Positions 6,228 through 59,642 of a stretch of 64,000 nt of DNA are shown one piece after another. This stretch comes from Eubacteriales bacterium (GTDB lineage Bacteria; Bacillota; Clostridia; Oscillospirales; Oscillospiraceae), in assembly GCA_030536515.1 (NCBI GenBank), contig JAUNPV010000013.1, forward strand, positions 1-64,000. The letters run 5' to 3'. Within the stretch, counting starts at the first letter, position 1. Every line of letters starts with the position of its first letter. The notes beneath the pieces were generated by a model. It searched no databases. It was not told the DNA's origin and saw only the letters and a program-made list of their open reading frames with translations. The position numbers and the translations under genes are program-made.

Positions 6228-6278
6228 CCCCTTTGTGAGAAAATTCTCTGATTATTCATAAATGGCACCGTACCAAAA

Positions 6279-6546
6279 CCTTCCCCCGGGGGGAAGGTGC
6301 CCCAGTTCGCAAACTGGGGCGGATGAGGAATGCGGGCAGTAACCTAAAGTACGGTACAGGTACGGGCTTGCTGGTGGCTATCGTTTACCGTTCAGCAAGC
6401 ACGTACGTTTCTAACATCCAGACTTGCCGCCCGCATTCCTCATCCGTCACGGCTTACGCCGTGCCACCTTCTCCCCGCAAGGGGGACGCCGCATCCGTAA
6501 GCCGCTGAAGCGGCAACGGCTGCGCGGCCCCCGGGGGAAGGTTTTG
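6279..6546. repeat. Terminal-inverted-repeat element, copy 2
   Basis: CCTTCCCCCGGGGGGAAGG at 6279, the hairpin GCCCCAGT/ACTGGGGC and GGATGAGGAATGCGGGC face an inverted GCCCGCATTCCTCATCC near 6430-6446. The right end is enlarged by about 50 bases (Arg/Gly-codon-like GC sequence) before CCCCCGGGGGAAGG. It fills most of the gap between htpG and the ABC-F gene and contains no gene. Confidence 0.85.
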
Positions 6547-11660: not shown

Positions 11661-11899
11661 CCTTCCCCCGCACCCCAATACCTTCCCCCGGGGGGAAGGT
11701 GCCCCAGTGCGCACACTGGGGCGGATGAGGAATGCGGGCAGTAACCTTAACTGATAGCATCGCTTCGTGCCTGCTGGTGGGTATGTTTTACCATTCAGCA
11801 AGCACGGACGTTTTTATCATCCAGCCTTGCCGCCCGCATTCCTCTTCCGTCACGGCTACGCCGTGCCACCTTCCCCCCGGGGGAAGGTATTTGGGGTGC
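11661..11899. repeat. Terminal-inverted-repeat element, copy 3
   Basis: This copy shows the outer flank CCGCACCCCAATA before CCTTCCCCCGGGGGGAAGG, the GCCCCAGT/ACTGGGGC hairpin, inverted GGATGAGGAATGCGGGC arms and the right end GGTATTTGGGGTGC. The core contains CAGCAAGCACGGACG, close to the core of copy 2. Confidence 0.85.
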
Positions 11900-12074: not shown

Positions 12075-13949
12075 TTACTTTTCTTCCACGTAATACTGTG
12101 CCTGGGCGTTCCACAGGTCCTGGTATTTGCCGCTTGCGGCCACCAGGGAGTCGTGGGTGCCGGTTTGGACGATACTTCCGTGGTCAAAGACGGCGATTTC
12201 GTCGCAGAAGCGGCAGGAGGACAGGCGGTGGGAGATGTAAATGGCGGTTTTATCGGTGACGATGTCGTTGAATTTGCTGTAAATCTCCGCCTCGGCGATG
12301 GGGTCCAGGGCGGCGGTGGGTTCGTCCAGGATGATGAAGGGGGCGTCCTTGTACAGCGCCCGGGCAATGGCGATTTTCTGGGCCTCGCCGCCGGATACCT
12401 CCACGCCCTCCTTGTCAAAGTCCTTGTAGAGCATGGTGTCCAGGCCCTTTGGCATGGTGGACAGCCGCGTATCAAAGCCTGCATCCCGGAGGGCCCGGGC
12501 GGCCTTGTCCCGGTCAAAGTCCTTAGCCCCCGCCACGTTGGAGCCCAGGCTCTGGCTCAGGAGCTTGAAGTCCTGGAACACCACGGAGAAAATGCCCATG
12601 TAGTCGTCGTAGCGGTACTTGCGGATGTCGATGCCGTTGAGCAGAATCTGCCCCTCCTGGGGGTCGTAGAGGCGGCACAGGAGCTTGATAAAGGTGGTCT
12701 TGCCGGAGCCGTTCTCGCCCACCACGGCAAGGCGGGAGCCCACGGTGAATTTGGTGGACACATGGCGCAGAGCCCAGCTGTCTGCGCCGGGGTAGCGGAA
12801 GGACACATCCTTAAATTCCACCTGATACTTCCGGTCGGCCCGCTTCTCGGTGGTGAGACTGCCCTGGTACATTTTGTTGGGGATGTCCAGGAAGGTAAAC
12901 ACATTGAGAAGATAGGGGGCGTTGTTTTTCAGCTGCCCCAGGCCCTCGGCGAGCCGGCTGACGCTGCCGGTGAGGGCGGCGACGGCTCCCACATACTGGG
13001 TGACGGAGCCAATGCCAAAGGCCCCGGCCCAGGCCTTCAGACACACGAACACATAGATAAACGCGGTGACGATGACGCCCCCGGCGCTGCCCATAGCGCC
13101 CCACAGGCCCATGGGGCCTCGGGCAAACCGGGCGATAGGGCCGTTTGCGCTGAAGGCAGTATCCTTGGTTTCGTAGTAATCTGCAATATCGCGCTGATTG
13201 TACATCCGGCGGTCCATGGCCTTGGAGGCATCATCGCCCAGAAAGCCGAAAAAGGTGAACAGGCGGTTGCCCAGCATACTTTCTTCGCCTGCCCGGGTCC
13301 AGTAGCCCTCTGCCCTGGTTTCGCACGCCGGGCCCAGCATGGAGACCGCCAGCAGAACGGCCAGGGTCGCCAGAAGAAACAGCGGATGGTTCAGCACCGT
13401 CCAGCCGCCTGCCGAGGCAGGCACCGGGGTGGCGAACAGGCTTACGGTCAAAACCACAGCGCCCAGAATGCCCATGACGCCCCATGTCATATGGTTCGCC
13501 CCCCATATCAGCGTATCCAGGCCCCAGCTGTGCCAGTTTTCGCCCTGTTGAATCTGGGAGTACAGGTCGCTGGTCTCGGTTTTGTCCACATCGGCAAAGT
13601 CCATGCCGAGGAACTTTTCGGAGAACATCCAGATCTTCCGCACAGCATATTGCTCCTGCTTTGCGGTCACCCACCGGTCCAGCACGCCTCGCAGAAGGGT
13701 GGTCAGGGCAATGGCGGCAACGGTCAGCGCCACCAGGGGCCACAGAACGTCGGAGCGCCGCTGGCCTGCCAGCTCGTTGACCACCCGGGCGGACAGCCAG
13801 ATGGTCAGATATGGACTCAGAGCTTCCGCTGCGGTGGACAGAAACACAGCGCTCAGCAGCCGGGGACACAGCTTGCGGAGCACCCGGTAGCCCCGGAGAC
13901 TCAGCCGGGAGACCTGCTTCCAGCTTATGGTAGCTTCCTTCTTTGCCAT
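12075..13949 (-). CDS. ABC exporter, fused membrane and ATPase domains (second half-transporter)
   Basis: The 624-residue half-transporter has an N-terminal six-helix membrane domain (to about residue 350). The C-terminal ATPase has Walker A GENGSGKTT, signature VSGGEAQKIAIARAL, Walker B FIILDEPTAALD and switch His in YISHR. It has no C39 peptidase domain, so it would not itself cut a leader peptide. Its start overlaps the stop of the upstream exporter (TAATG), so the two are translated together and probably act as a heterodimer. The position after a small peptide gene suggests the peptide as cargo; that is inference. Confidence 0.92.
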   Translation of the reverse strand: MAKKEATISWKQVSRLSLRGYRVLRKLCPRLLSAVFLSTAAEALSPYLTIWLSARVVNELAGQRRSDVLWPLVALTVAAIALTTLLRGVLDRWVTAKQEQYAVRKIWMFSEKFLGMDFADVDKTETSDLYSQIQQGENWHSWGLDTLIWGANHMTWGVMGILGAVVLTVSLFATPVPASAGGWTVLNHPLFLLATLAVLLAVSMLGPACETRAEGYWTRAGEESMLGNRLFTFFGFLGDDASKAMDRRMYNQRDIADYYETKDTAFSANGPIARFARGPMGLWGAMGSAGGVIVTAFIYVFVCLKAWAGAFGIGSVTQYVGAVAALTGSVSRLAEGLGQLKNNAPYLLNVFTFLDIPNKMYQGSLTTEKRADRKYQVEFKDVSFRYPGADSWALRHVSTKFTVGSRLAVVGENGSGKTTFIKLLCRLYDPQEGQILLNGIDIRKYRYDDYMGIFSVVFQDFKLLSQSLGSNVAGAKDFDRDKAARALRDAGFDTRLSTMPKGLDTMLYKDFDKEGVEVSGGEAQKIAIARALYKDAPFIILDEPTAALDPIAEAEIYSKFNDIVTDKTAIYISHRLSSCRFCDEIAVFDHGSIVQTGTHDSLVAASGKYQDLWNAQAQYYVEEK

Positions 13950-15760
13950 TAGAATTCTCTCCCTTCCCGGTAGTACCGGCTCTGGACCTCAAAGAGGTCT
14001 GCGTATCCGCCGCCCATTTTCAGCAGCGCCTCGTGGGTGCCTTCCTCCGCCACCTTGCCGTTCGCCAAATAGATAATCCGGTCGCAGAACCGGGTGGAGG
14101 CCAGGCGGTGGGAGATGAACAGGGAGGTCTTTCCGGCGGTCATGTCGTTGTACTTCCTGTAGATATCGTTTTCCGCAATGGGGTCCAGGGCGGCGGTAGG
14201 CTCATCCAGCATGAGAATGGGGGCCTCTTTATACAGCGCCCGGGCCAGCATCAGCCGCTGGGTCTGGCCGCCGGAGAACAGAACGCCGTCGTAGTACACA
14301 TCCCGGCCCACGTGGGTCTCGATGCCCTGGGGGAGGGTTTCAATGAATTCCGTCAGCCCGGCCCGGTCCAGACAGGTGCGGACCTTGCGCTCGTCAATGT
14401 CCTTGTAGTCCTGGGCCACGTTTTCCGCAATGGTGCATTGGAGCAGGTCGTACTCCTGGAACACGGCGGAGAGCTTTGCGTAGTATTCCTGGCGGTTAAA
14501 CTCCCGGATGTCGATGCCGTTGCAGAGGACCCGGCCCTCGGTGGGGTCGTAGAAGCCGGACAGGAGCTTGACCAGGGTGGTCTTGCCGGCGCCGTTGAGG
14601 CCCACCACCGCCAGCTTTTCCCCGGGGTGGACGGTGAGGTTCAGATGCTCAAACAGATTTTTCTCGGAGCCGGGGTAGCGGAAGGTCACGTCCTCCAGCC
14701 GCAGCTCATAGCCCTCGCTCTGGGGCACCGGGCGGCCGCCCTGGAAGCGGAAGGACTCGGAATAGTCCAGGTATTCCCGGATGATGGAAATGCCCAGGCT
14801 CTCCTTGCGAAGGGTGGCGAAGCCCTTCAGAATGCCGGTGACCCAGCTGGAAAAGCCGGAGACAGCGGCAAAATACAGCAAAAACTGAGAAGCGGGCAGC
14901 CCCCGGTCCAGGGCCAGGCGGATGAGGTACAGGTAGGCAATGCCATTCCGGGCCACAGCCACCAGGGTATCCACCACGGTGGCCCACACGTAGACCCTTT
15001 CCCGGCGGCGGAGGAAGGCACCCAACATCCGCTGGCCGCTTTCGTGGATATCCCGGAGCCACTGGCCCAGGCCGAAAATCCGGATATCCTTTGCGTAGCT
15101 CCGCTTCATGGCGTGATTGGCGGCGTAAGTTACGGACTTGGAAATATCCGCCCGCTCCTCCCGGTGGCGGTAGCCCCAGTCGTTGATTCGGCGGCTGATG
15201 AAAAAGCCCAGAACGGAGCTGACCAGCACCACCGCAATGAGCAGGGCGTTGAGGTTCGCCAGCAGGGTCAGGTACACCGCAAAGCCCAGCAGATTCAGCA
15301 GCACCTCCGTCAGGGTCTCCCAGATGTGCTCTGCGGAGGACTGGTTGGAGTTTATGTGGTCATGGGCGTTCTCCCGGAGCTTGAGGAACTGAGGGTCCCG
15401 GGTGTTGGGGTAGGAGGTCTCGCAGCCCTTCCGGTCCATGGCACGGGTAATGAAGGTCCGCACATCGATGCGGCCAAAGAGCTTGTTCTGATTCAAATAG
15501 CCAAAGAGGCCGTACAGCAGGAACAGACCGGCGCAGAAGCCGCCGATGGTCCCCAGCAGCTCCCCCAGCGGGGCGTGGGTCTCCACCCGGGCCAGAACCT
15601 GAGGGGCCAGGAACAGCTCGGTCAGATTGATGGAAAGCCGGACGGCCACAATGACCAGGCAGAGAAGGGGAACGCTCATGCGCCCGGACTTCCAGGCGCA
15701 TTTCAGCATGAACCAGGTGTTCTGCCATTCGGTGTATTTTGCTTTTTCGTGTTTCTTCAT
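13949..15760 (-). CDS. ABC exporter, fused membrane and ATPase domains (first half-transporter)
   Basis: This 603-residue protein begins at ATG 15760, preceded by AGAGG at 7-base spacing, 14 bases after the stop of the 31-residue peptide ORF. The frame is open further upstream, but that region is the peptide gene in another frame. The membrane domain takes about residues 1-340. The ATPase follows with GLNGAGKTT, FSGGQTQRLMLARAL and ILMLDEPTAALD. Both half-transporters keep complete ATP motifs, unlike many heterodimers with one dead site. No peptidase domain is present. It forms an operon with the peptide and the second exporter. Confidence 0.92.
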   Translation of the reverse strand: MKKHEKAKYTEWQNTWFMLKCAWKSGRMSVPLLCLVIVAVRLSINLTELFLAPQVLARVETHAPLGELLGTIGGFCAGLFLLYGLFGYLNQNKLFGRIDVRTFITRAMDRKGCETSYPNTRDPQFLKLRENAHDHINSNQSSAEHIWETLTEVLLNLLGFAVYLTLLANLNALLIAVVLVSSVLGFFISRRINDWGYRHREERADISKSVTYAANHAMKRSYAKDIRIFGLGQWLRDIHESGQRMLGAFLRRRERVYVWATVVDTLVAVARNGIAYLYLIRLALDRGLPASQFLLYFAAVSGFSSWVTGILKGFATLRKESLGISIIREYLDYSESFRFQGGRPVPQSEGYELRLEDVTFRYPGSEKNLFEHLNLTVHPGEKLAVVGLNGAGKTTLVKLLSGFYDPTEGRVLCNGIDIREFNRQEYYAKLSAVFQEYDLLQCTIAENVAQDYKDIDERKVRTCLDRAGLTEFIETLPQGIETHVGRDVYYDGVLFSGGQTQRLMLARALYKEAPILMLDEPTAALDPIAENDIYRKYNDMTAGKTSLFISHRLASTRFCDRIIYLANGKVAEEGTHEALLKMGGGYADLFEVQSRYYREGREF

Positions 15761-15774
15761 GGCGTTACCTCTTT

Positions 15775-15870
15775 TCAAAAGCCCAGCAGGCCAAAGCCGG
15801 GATACGGGGACCGGCAGCGGCCATAGGCGCTGACCCGGGCATTGCGGAAAATAGAATGCAGTTTCATCAT
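15775..15870 (-). CDS. 31-residue candidate signal or precursor peptide
   Basis: This short ORF has a strong ribosome site (AAGGAAGG, 5 bases before ATG) and sits at the head of the two-exporter operon. The first half is basic and amphipathic (MMKLHSIFRNAR). The second half contains one Cys, and the product ends RCRSPYPGFGLLGF, with two prolines, three glycines and a hydrophobic terminus. One Cys near a hydrophobic C-terminus recalls thiolactone autoinducers, but there is no AgrB-type protease here. It could also be a modified or unmodified bacteriocin-like peptide. Coding status is supported by the ribosome site, promoter and spacing; the function is inferred from context. Confidence 0.6.
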   Translation of the reverse strand: MMKLHSIFRNARVSAYGRCRSPYPGFGLLGF

Positions 15871-15911
15871 ACAGACCTTCCTTTCCTGTGCGGTTTGATT
15901 TCACTGGCATC

Positions 15912-15978
15912 ATCATAGCACAGAAAAATCAAAACGGCACATTCCGGGGACGAATTGTAGTTTCCGGGGGACGAATTG
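15912..15978 (-). promoter_or_regulatory. LytTR-type direct repeat and promoter of the peptide/exporter operon
   Basis: On the minus strand CAATTCGTC occurs at 15978-15970 and again at 15957-15949. These 9-bp direct repeats lie 12 bases apart (21-bp period), the layout of AgrA/LytTR boxes; the half site resembles the AlgR sequence CCGTTCGTC. An extended -10 TGCTATGAT (TATGAT at 15917-15912) follows, with no good -35 at the expected place. This fits a promoter that needs an activator bound just upstream. Confidence 0.65.
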
Positions 15979-15991
15979 CAAAAATCATCCT

Positions 15992-16222
15992 CCGCACCCA
16001 ATAGCTTCCCCCGGGGGGAAGGTGCCCCAGTTCGCAAACTGGGGCGGATGAGGAATGCGGGCGGAGACCTAACGTGCGGTACAGGTCCGTGCCTGCTGAC
16101 AGGTATCGTTATCCACCTGGAGGCACGAACCGATACAACAGTTAATGTTGCCGCCCGCATTCCTCATCCGTCAGGGCTTACGCCCTGCCACCTTCCCCCC
16201 GGGGGAAGGTATTGGGGGTGCG
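15992..16222. repeat. Terminal-inverted-repeat element, copy 4
   Basis: CCGCACCCAATAGCTTCCCCC and the inverted right end GGGGGAAGGTATTGGGGGTGCGG bound a copy with GGATGAGGAATGCGGGC arms. The core GCACGAACCGATACAACAGT is shared with copy 6. It separates the two-component genes from the peptide/exporter operon they probably control. Confidence 0.85.
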
Positions 16223-16237
16223 GGGGAAGGCATTATC

Positions 16238-16906
16238 TTACTCCTTCGGCTGAGGCAGAAGAATCTCCGTTGTAAAGGCCCCGTCCTCGGAGTTTCTGGA
16301 AATATACCCCTCCAGCCGCTCCACGATGGTGTCGATGCGGACCAGGCCGAAGCCGTGGCCGTCGCCCTTGGTGGTCTGGAAGCGGCTGCCCAGCTTTTGG
16401 AGCTTCTTTCCGGCGGTGAAGTTGGTGAAGGAGATGTACAGCTGGGTCCCCTTCATGTCCATGTACACCCGAATCAGCCGCTGGTCCTGGGGCAGGGGGA
16501 GGCTGGCCTCGATGGCGTTGTCAAAGAGATTGCCGATGATGCAGCACAGGTCCAGCTCCGACAGCCGCAGCTTCACGGGGATGTGGGCGTCGGCCTGGAC
16601 CGGGATGCCCTTGGCCGTGGCCAGGGAGATTTTGGAGTTCAAAATGGCGTCGGTCATGGGGTTGCCGGTTTTGATGACCGTGTCCACGGTGTTCAGGTCC
16701 GTGTCCAGCTCGTCTAAGTAGGTGCAGATGGCATCCCAGTTGCCCTGGGCGGCGTAGGCCTTCATCAGCTGGATGTGGTTGCGGTAGTCGTGGCGCCAGC
16801 CCCGAATCTGCCGGTACATATTTTCCACCTCGGCGTAGTGGGTTTCAATCAGCTCCCGCTGGTAGGCGGCCAGCTGCTTGTCGATTTTCTTTGATAAAAT
16901 TCCCAT
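16238..16906 (-). CDS. GHKL-domain histidine kinase without membrane sensor
   Basis: This 222-residue kinase of the AgrC/ComD (HPK10) type starts with a coiled-coil-like helix and the phospho-acceptor box RHDYRNHI near residues 38-45. The N box is GNLFDNAIEA, and the glycine-rich ATP lid is GDGHGFGL. AgrC-like kinases are usually about 430 residues with six membrane helices. Here the membrane part is absent and the protein has no hydrophobic helix, so it must sense a cytosolic cue or be driven by another protein. It lies 4 bases after the response regulator, in one operon. It should phosphorylate that regulator. Confidence 0.9.
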   Translation of the reverse strand: MGILSKKIDKQLAAYQRELIETHYAEVENMYRQIRGWRHDYRNHIQLMKAYAAQGNWDAICTYLDELDTDLNTVDTVIKTGNPMTDAILNSKISLATAKGIPVQADAHIPVKLRLSELDLCCIIGNLFDNAIEASLPLPQDQRLIRVYMDMKGTQLYISFTNFTAGKKLQKLGSRFQTTKGDGHGFGLVRIDTIVERLEGYISRNSEDGAFTTEILLPQPKE

Positions 16907-16910
16907 GGCG

Positions 16911-17609
16911 TTACCTCATGCTGATAATGGCCCGGTTCACCTTCTCATAGGCCCCCCGGGGCAGGGGCAGACTGTCCCCGTCCTCTAAATAAATGTCGGT
17001 TTTGGTCACCCGGCTGATGCAGGTCAGATTCACAATGGCCGACCGGCCCACCCGGCAGAACCGCTCGTCCAGCTGCTTTTCCAGCTCCCCCAGAGGCATT
17101 TTCACGGTGAAGGGGGCCTTGGCGTGGACGGTGATGTAGTTGGACTGGACCTGGGCCCAGCGGATTTGATACACCGGCACCCGCAGGACCTCGCCGCCGA
17201 CCTCAAAGGTCAGCACCCGCTCGTTCTTTTGCAGCTTCACCGCCGCCCGGTCCAGCACCGCCAGGAGCTTTTCGCCGTTGACCGGCTTCATTAAATAATG
17301 GAGGGCCGCCACCTCGTAGCCCTCGGAGATATAGTCGGAGTAGCCGGTGACGAAAATAATCTGCACAGTCTCATTCTCCCGCCGAAGCCGCTTCGCCAGG
17401 GTCACCCCGTCCATGTCCCCCATTTCCACATCCAGCAGGGCGATGTCATAGTCCTTGACCTCGGCATAGTGAAACAGAAACTGCTCCGCCGAGGAAAACA
17501 CATCCAGCTGAATCCCAGCCCCCCGCATCGCCGCCCAGGACCGGACAAACCCCTCCACAAACCGGGCATCCTCCGGGCAGTCATCACAAATGGCAATTTT
17601 ATAACTCAT
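16911..17609 (-). CDS. LytTR-family response regulator
   Basis: The 232-residue regulator has a receiver domain (residues 1-120) and a LytTR DNA-binding domain (about 130-232). The receiver has acidic pair CDD near residue 9, phospho-acceptor Asp in LLDVEMGDMDG and conserved Lys in MKPVNG. The DNA-binding domain includes FCRVGRSAIVNL. The ATG at 17609 follows GAGGTG; the upstream in-frame extension has no ribosome site. LytTR proteins bind paired 9-bp direct repeats, and exactly such a pair stands before the peptide/exporter operon 1 kb away. It is first in the operon with the kinase. Confidence 0.93.
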   Translation of the reverse strand: MSYKIAICDDCPEDARFVEGFVRSWAAMRGAGIQLDVFSSAEQFLFHYAEVKDYDIALLDVEMGDMDGVTLAKRLRRENETVQIIFVTGYSDYISEGYEVAALHYLMKPVNGEKLLAVLDRAAVKLQKNERVLTFEVGGEVLRVPVYQIRWAQVQSNYITVHAKAPFTVKMPLGELEKQLDERFCRVGRSAIVNLTCISRVTKTDIYLEDGDSLPLPRGAYEKVNRAIISMR

Positions 17610-17634
17610 ACCAGCACCTCGTTTCCTTGGGGAT

Positions 17635-17663
17635 ATTGTAACAGAGCGGGGGAGGAAAATCAA
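17635..17663 (-). promoter_or_regulatory. Promoter of the LytTR/GHKL operon
   Basis: On the minus strand TTGATT (17663-17658), 17 bases, TACAAT (17640-17635) precede the regulator gene. Confidence 0.65.
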
Positions 17664-17880: not shown

Positions 17881-17882
17881 TA

Positions 17883-18053
17883 GTGAAATATTCTGCTGAC
17901 GCAGAATGTGAAATGTGGGCTTACGCCTACGTGAAATATTGCTGCGCAATGTGAAATGAAATAAATCCCCTCACGCCCGCAGGCATTTCACGTGCGAAGC
18001 ACATTTCACGCCCGCAGGGCATTTCACAAATCCCGAAGGGATTTATTTCACTG
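17883..18053. repeat. Array of GTGAAAT/ATTTCAC-spaced small hairpins
   Basis: Six or more GTGAAAT or ATTTCAC words separate short palindromes such as TTCTGC/GCAGAA, TTGCTGCGCAA, GTGCGAAGCAC and TCCCGAAGGGA. The left side reads GTGAAAT and the right side ATTTCAC, so the whole array is a large inverted structure. No ORF is present. Confidence 0.7.
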
Positions 18054-18217: not shown

Positions 18218-18220
18218 TGG

Positions 18221-18294
18221 TACGGCAAAAGGGACTCGAACCCCCGACCTACTGATTCGTAGTCAGTCACTCTATCCAACTGAGCTATTGCCGC
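18221..18294 (-). tRNA. tRNA-Arg (anticodon ACG)
   Basis: On the minus strand the acceptor stem is GCGGCAA paired with TTGCCGT (first pair G-U). The D-arm contains AGCTCAGTTGGATAGAGT. The anticodon arm CTGAC TACGAAT CAG gives ACG, and the T-arm is GGGGGTTCGAGTCCC. Discriminator A is followed by an encoded CCA at 18220-18218. Length is 74 without CCA. It reads CGN arginine codons through inosine. Confidence 0.93.
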
Positions 18295-59290: not shown

Positions 59291-59392
59291 AACTATTTCT
59301 TTCCTTTGTCTGAATTCATTCCGATATTATACCATAATGCCGTGAAATTTGCAACTGTGGAATGAAGAAACAATGTGATGGCACGAATAAAG

Positions 59393-59642
59393 CCTTCCCC
59401 CGCGCCCAATACCTTCCCCCGGGGGGAAGGTGGCACGGCGAAGCCGTGACGGATGAGGAATGCGGGAGGCAAGGCTGGATGTCGGAAACCTGCGTGCCTG
59501 CTGAAAGGTAAACAATACCCAACAGCAAGCACGAACCGATACAACAGTTAAGATTTCCGCCCGCATTCCTCATCCGCCCCAGTGTGCGCACTGGGGCACC
59601 TTCCCCCCGGGGGAAGGTATTGGGGGTGCGGGGAAGGTATTG
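59393..59642. repeat. Terminal-inverted-repeat element, copy 6
   Basis: CCTTCCCCCGCGCCCAATAC and the right TATTGGGGGTGCGGGGAAGG bound a copy. The left inner hairpin is GGCACGGC/GCCGTG and the right one GCCCCAGT/ACTGGGGC, reversed relative to copies 2 and 3. The core GCACGAACCGATACAACAGT matches copy 4. It fills most of the 438-base gap before tmk. Confidence 0.85.

Follow-up and report, generated by a model that had tools for sequence, protein, structure and literature searches.

A conserved cassette of a LytTR regulator, a GHKL kinase without a membrane segment, and paired ABC exporter halves in gut Clostridia

The Agr, Blp, and Com peptide-pheromone systems combine a LytTR response regulator with a GHKL (HPK10-type) histidine kinase that has a membrane receptor part, and with AgrB or a C39 peptidase. 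The subject of this study is a cassette with a LytTR/GHKL pair in a 64,000-nt stretch (the window) of contig JAUNPV010000013.1 from a Eubacteriales bacterium (GCA_030536515.1; genome of 2.63 Mb in 48 contigs); all coordinates are positions in the window. The signaling genes are followed by the two halves of an ATP-binding cassette (ABC) exporter, ABC1 and ABC2, and the cassette is read here, with moderate confidence, as a self-contained, self-switched export module in which regulator and kinase would switch ABC1-ABC2.

Other described systems are also close. In the Bce modules (BceRS-BceAB), as far as the cited text describes them, a dedicated two-component pair controls an ABC transporter gene pair that consists of a BceB-type permease and a separate ATPase; the kinase BceS has two membrane helices and no external sensor, and the transporter has been proposed as the sensor (PMC10314905). 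The LytTR Regulatory Systems, such as HdrRM, BrsRM, and ABC-linked ones in Streptococcus mutans, are described in the cited sections as a LytTR protein with a membrane inhibitor and no kinase; direct repeats drive the regulator's own operon, often with an extended -10, and some of these systems are linked to ABC genes (PMC6193735). In Bacillus subtilis, the small open reading frame (ORF) bmrB is directly before the heterodimeric ABC exporter pair bmrCD, and the cited account has alternative stem-loops, including an intrinsic terminator, while naming no two-component pair (PMC4191407). No description of the four-gene cassette was found in the literature searched (open-licence PMC papers).

A preliminary description made from the sequence alone had drawn five genes on one strand, with a 31-residue ORF between kinase and ABC1 taken for the export product and possibly also the signal. 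The five frames are all confirmed, on the minus strand, and the view that the LytTR and GHKL genes and the exporter are one regulated unit is supported. The regulator frame also stands, but its start is now taken as the ATG at 17609 (stop at 16911) in place of 17663, which is an in-frame TTG farther upstream. The preliminary description was silent on the missing membrane domain of the kinase, an interspersed repeat of approximately 235 bp, and the LytTR-type operator with its extended -10.

Conservation of the four genes and their products

The conserved cassette has four genes, namely those for the LytTR regulator, the short GHKL kinase, and the two ABC exporter halves. ABC1 was found in 30 of 136 same-genus genomes (E <= 1e-150, own genome counted), and the kinase search (E <= 1e-60) gave 53 of 394 genomes of the order and 15 of 391 genomes of the class. 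The assembled set comprises 116 loci with a kinase and 114 distinct kinase sequences, the kinases being identical in the locus pairs L087/L111 and L088/L127; the duplicate loci L119, L136, and L141 were dropped, as were identical gaps in the operator comparisons. Since 35 of the 116 loci were found through ABC1 and contain it by construction, the linkage counts given here are those of the 80 loci retrieved with the kinase as the only query. All 80 have the regulator immediately upstream of the kinase, and 67 have the ABC1 start downstream of it, while the 13 failures include contig ends, late-starting exporter matches, and two loci with unrelated genes (L176, L181). Among 15 loci with wider flanks, the kinase and exporters are present in 15 and the regulator in 14; the only further real shared gene recognised was FeoB-like, in three loci, and the remaining gene clusters resemble shadow frames of the cassette. 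The four-gene order exceeds chance.

Named relatives closest to ABC1 come mostly from uncultured gut Clostridia (Oscillospiraceae, Lachnospiraceae, and others). One metagenome-assembled genome labelled Lachnospiraceae has a tandem ABC1-ABC2-ABC1-ABC2 arrangement behind one kinase (L090, 2236-9665). Several kinase matches, with differing operator letters, can also occur in one genome (seven in G183, four in G286), which suggests parallel modules.

The kinase is the best-conserved part of the cassette. In 31 loci found through ABC1, a subset without the filter of at least 70% kinase identity that favors the kinase, median identity to the window is 82% for the kinase and 56% for ABC1, with the kinase higher in 31 of 31; for the regulator it is 66% (24 of the ABC1-found loci). 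The kinase begins 4 bases past the regulator stop. With an open frame of only 225 aa, it is the shortest among the 11 PF14501 frames of the own genome (335-484 aa for the others). No membrane segment is present, the highest hydropathy over 19 residues being 1.23, in the ATPase/catalytic domain, versus 2.55 in ABC1, and no recognisable sensor domain was found. The protein has a SPOB_a-type DHp region, with H39 within RHDYRNH, and an ATPase domain; H39, which is taken to be the phospho-accepting residue, and the segments presumed to be the N and G boxes are invariant across seven aligned kinases. Hydropathy exceeds 1.6 in nine of 115 kinases, and the catalytic segment concerned is the same each time. 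Upstream of the kinases, six of 33 open stretches with a length of 19 residues or more exceed 1.6, all from distant paralogues (L201-L207), and some distant kinase relatives may have a membrane helix.

The adjacent half transporters each have a membrane part and an ATPase, as expected of a heterodimeric MsbA/P-glycoprotein-like exporter, and their genes are joined by a TAATG overlap. The complete ATP sites reported earlier are borne out in both translations, read by eye: Walker A, the signature, Walker B with the following glutamate, and the H-loop. The nearest solved structures for ABC1 and ABC2 are P-glycoprotein-like and MsbA-like exporters, although such matches do not fix the substrate. 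At E <= 0.001, neither half had a Pfam ABC_membrane match, and their membrane parts are therefore judged to be divergent. For the cassette proteins, no NCBIfam model reached its cut-off among the matches listed, and Pfam and NCBIfam searches found no AgrB, C39 peptidase, or modifying enzyme among them; here the preliminary description was right, as it was in seeing no fit to the Agr, Com/Blp, or lantibiotic layouts.

Table 1. Positions of the cassette genes and associated elements in the window
Feature	Position	Strand	Basis or remark
LytTR response regulator, 232 aa (receiver and LytTR DNA-binding domain)	16911..17609	-	Pfam Response_reg 2.7e-17, LytTR 1.3e-13
GHKL histidine kinase without membrane segment, 222 aa	16238..16906	-	Pfam HATPase_c_5 6.8e-18, SPOB_a 2.2e-7
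ABC1 exporter half, membrane part and ATPase	13949..15760	-	Pfam ABC_tran 5.4e-31; MsbA/P-glycoprotein-type matches
ABC2, second exporter half	12075..13949	-	Pfam ABC_tran 2.5e-28
LytTR-type operator repeat 1 GCAATTCGT	15971..15979	-	kept in relatives
LytTR-type operator repeat 2 ACAATTCGT	15950..15958	-	12 bp after repeat 1, period 21
Extended -10, TGC-TATGAT, of the exporter promoter	15912..15920	-	sequence reading and geometry script
31-residue upstream ORF MMKLHSIFRNARVSAYGRCRSPYPGFGLLGF	15775..15870	-	species-private among genomes searched; codon usage coding-like
Ribosome-binding site GGAAAGGAAGG of the 31-residue ORF	15876..15886	-	sequence
Interspersed repeat of ~235 bp, near-perfect inverted ends	15997..16234	.	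between kinase and operator

Operator and exporter promoter

A LytTR-type operator and an extended -10 are in the gap between kinase and exporter, just upstream of the 31-residue ORF. The layout in the window is GCAATTCGT-12 bp-ACAATTCGT-10 bp-(-35 position)-13 bp-TGC-TATGAT, that is, 9-bp direct repeats approximately 12 bp apart and approximately 10 bp above the -35 position, as in a LytTR-controlled promoter; the cited part of the work on LytTR operons gives the spacing 9-12-9-10-(-35)-13-TGN-(-10) for Streptococcus mutans and others (PMC6193735). No TTGACA-like -35 was found at the expected position, and for this reason a simple sigma-70 promoter scan did not list the extended -10 site. An activator-dependent extended -10 promoter would be expected to look this way.

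The gap between kinase and ABC1 has a median length of 104.5 bp (102 loci) versus 478 bp in the window. When the best repeat at any period from 13 to 32 was taken, period 21 was best in 73 of 95 distinct gaps, while the largest class in shuffles was 11 (period 14); the 21-bp operator period exceeds chance. It is best in 20 of 31 gaps for kinases of less than 70% identity, and in more distant cassettes the period is kept while the letters are changed. Among 60 distinct gaps, both half-sites have at most two mismatches (in 18) to two copies of ATTCGTCCC in 51 and at most three in 56, the worst fit being that of L044, a paralogue with a different code. The TG is at the exact -10-linked position in 43 of the 60 and within one base in all 60, counted at a fixed position, as the earlier -10 search rewarded TG. 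The operator is conserved and matches proven LytTR operators, and by this likeness the regulator would bind it and activate the promoter.

Operator repeats differ among members (ATTCGTCCC, ATTCGTGCA, TTTCACGT, and others), and, if the regulatory reading is true, the members would be candidates for insulated parallel circuits. The operator class tracks the regulator tree, with 14 changes versus 31.2 in shuffles (none of 200 had as few), for classes that are rough (55 C, 28 other, and 8 G) and with near-copies that aid clustering. Some rows classed as other inside the C clade, for example L039 and L124, carry ATTCGTCCC-like repeats and miss class C, as their gaps had been trimmed at the kinase stop.

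Operator repeat 2 could also pair with a downstream arm as a hairpin in 52 of 60 gaps, 49 of them with a T tract (12.6% and 1.75% in shuffles). Such a terminator-like hairpin, which is absent in the window, would stop the transcript of the regulator shortly before the exporter promoter. A terminator hairpin at repeat 2 was not adopted, as the RNAalifold consensus on a MAFFT alignment of the hairpin segments gave no structure (energy 0).

The 31-residue ORF and flanking elements

The strong ribosome site ascribed to the 31-residue ORF is present: GGAAAGGAAGG ends five bases ahead of the ATGATG start. The ORF stops 14 bases short of the ABC1 start codon, and ABC1 has its own ribosome site (AAAGAGG, 15768-15774). 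No Pfam or NCBIfam family matched the peptide. The 31-mer is absent from all 59 other distinct kinase-ABC1 gaps examined; the two loci nearest to the window by the regulator tree (L105, L113) are both without it, and it is missing as well from three more ABC1 loci that have no kinase (L033, L097, L102). No convincing homologue was found in 136 same-genus genomes (best other E 0.0012 per genome) or in 394 same-order genomes (best other E 0.0165 per genome), and the match with E 0.0012 (G085, L058) is in a locus with no ABC, kinase, or regulator match. The preliminary description had tied its proposal to conservation of the ORF in related loci. None was found. Exporter, kinase, regulator, and operator are kept where the ORF is lacking; given its absence from relatives' gaps and genomes, the ORF is outside the conserved system, and a conserved cargo was rejected on these searches. 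An origin as a copied gene fragment was also rejected, since matches to DNA of the own genome are no longer than 16-23 bases.

In 58 of 60 gaps, 10 to 97 nt separate the -10 from the ABC1 start. Leaders are longest in the window (149 nt) and, next, in L123 (131 nt). Other ORFs of at least 20 residues with an ATG, GTG, or TTG start occur in five of 59 gaps (L041, L092, L106, L115, and L123). The L123 ORF (genome G410) has 28 residues of unrelated sequence and a TTG start after the ribosome site GAGGTGATCA, while L121 from the same genus is without it; it is possibly an independent gain.

The codon score of the 31-residue ORF is 0.32 (0.324) in frame and -0.31 and -0.43 in the other two frames, while the genes of the window have a mean of 0.34. 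None of the 170 intergenic ORFs of the window reaches it (best 0.21); among stop-free 30-codon intergenic stretches 156 of 5342 do, all from three places that may hold uncalled genes, the gene calls in this comparison being crude. Such coding-like usage, the ribosome site, and the position directly before the exporter would suit a peptide that is exported by the module and perhaps serves as its signal, but the ORF is lacking in 59 of 59 gaps and in the genus and order genomes, the kinase has no membrane receptor or membrane sensor, and the cassette proteins include no processing enzyme, so that this proposal is now highly improbable. A BmrB-like leader peptide, with ribosome stalling that controls transcription or translation of ABC1-ABC2 as an antibiotic control of this lineage only, would also be coding-like, and has in its favor the longest leader of the 60, the leader ORF of L123, and the precedent of bmrB ahead of bmrCD, as given in the cited part of that study (PMC4191407). 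Nevertheless, no intrinsic terminator was found in 15700-16260 (0, versus 1.0 in shuffles), the fold of the leader RNA is not more stable than those of its shuffles (z +0.88; 163 of 200 were as stable or more so), and the 59 other gaps are without this ORF; leader-peptide control is considered unlikely. With fold and terminator scan negative and no Rfam family in the leader, the leader was rejected as an RNA attenuator. A chance frame in a recently lengthened leader, without effective translation, is doubtful but less so, as the ORF is private to one species, frames of this length are common (53% of letter shuffles and 25% of Markov sequences stay open), and the stretches from the three places score equally high; the frame-specific score and its absence from all intergenic ORFs are against it. 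The ORF, possibly translated, may have a private role, and from its sequence it is probably a translated, lineage-private upstream ORF.

The repeat of approximately 235 bp is inserted here between kinase and operator and is outside the conserved cassette. Further copies in the window are at 11661-11899, 6273-6477, and 59387-59641, and the genome has at least 98 matches at E <= 1e-5, often on both strands of one place and with scoring limited to 40 of 235 candidates. Two Gut-1 RNA (RF01706) matches are found immediately upstream of the cassette, both above the gathering score and in opposite directions (17980-18053, minus strand; 17881-17962, plus strand), and a tRNA-Arg (acg) is between these and the next gene (18218-18294, minus strand).

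Proposed mechanism and relation to known systems

If the cassette is a self-switched module, then kinase and regulator, judged by their spacing, would be made together from one transcription unit, and the phosphorylated regulator would bind the two direct repeats above the extended -10 and turn on the two-gene ABC1-ABC2 operon, giving a putative heterodimeric ABC exporter. With neither a membrane domain nor a recognisable sensor domain, the kinase must receive its cue inside the cell; this could be a cytosolic ligand, or contact with the exporter, such that export demand would set the exporter level. Contact with the exporter, or sensing of its state, is the preferred guess within the model but a tentative one. 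Because there is no conserved fifth gene, the cargo would not be a cassette-encoded peptide and is most likely a toxic or antimicrobial compound. The 31-residue ORF would have arisen in this lineage between promoter and ABC1, where it would at most tune ABC1 translation.

Several points weigh against this mechanism. Regulator binding, phosphotransfer, and export are predictions, and kinase-exporter contact is a guess. The ABC1-start test failed in 14 of 116 loci; L176 and L181 have unrelated downstream genes, while several of the others are cut by contig ends or have only a later ABC1 match. The pattern TTCRTCCC-N11-15-TTCRTCCC occurs once in the own genome, at the exporter promoter, and the reversed control also occurs once, so the count alone is not significant. 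The kinase may also have a different, unlinked partner. As the soluble partner of another membrane receptor, with the cassette as its output arm, it would need no sensor domain of its own, its very high conservation would fit an extra partner, and the few kinase loci without an exporter (L176, L181) would be accounted for; however, ABC1 linkage is nearly constant in the kinase-found loci (67 of 80) and the operator pattern occurs once in the own genome, and an unlinked receptor seems unlikely.

If the regulatory reading is true, then an export module common among gut bacteria is open to study as one unit of four genes whose promoter switch can be read, and the sensor-less kinase raises the direct question of what it reads. 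The peptide story, now corrected, would have led experimenters to a product that is missing in relatives. If the exporter-state reading is true, the cassette would be a case of flux sensing without any membrane sensor. More speculatively, the cassette could represent a widespread, undescribed class of gut-Clostridia modules, in which a wholly cytosolic GHKL kinase senses how a P-glycoprotein-like exporter is working and sets the level of that exporter by way of a LytTR regulator whose operator code is diversified and private, with many parallel modules in one cell (as in G183 with its seven kinase matches).

Among known systems, Agr, Blp, and Com have the same combination of a GHKL kinase with a LytTR regulator, but in the cassette the kinase lacks a membrane receptor part, and AgrB, a C39 peptidase, and a conserved peptide are absent. 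The likeness to BmrCD with bmrB is that a small ORF directly precedes the gene pair of a heterodimeric ABC exporter; the alternative stem-loops and terminator of the cited account (PMC4191407) were not found in the cassette leader, and the cassette has a two-component pair. The LytTR Regulatory Systems, in the cited sections, share with it the LytTR protein, 9-bp direct repeats 12 bp apart and approximately 10 bp above the -35, often the extended -10, and in some cases ABC-gene linkage (PMC6193735), while the cassette regulator has a receiver and a kinase as its partner, and its repeats are between the regulator and exporter genes. Within the limits of the cited text (PMC10314905), the cassette resembles the Bce modules in its dedicated two-component pair, its ABC gene pair, and a kinase without an external sensor, but it is not a member: the kinase is of the GHKL/SPOB_a type with no membrane helix, the regulator is of the LytTR type, and the ABC proteins are fused MsbA/P-glycoprotein-like half exporters. 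Transporter activity as the kinase signal would be by analogy to Bce. The cassette adds a cytosolic-kinase form to the known two-component control of ABC exporters.

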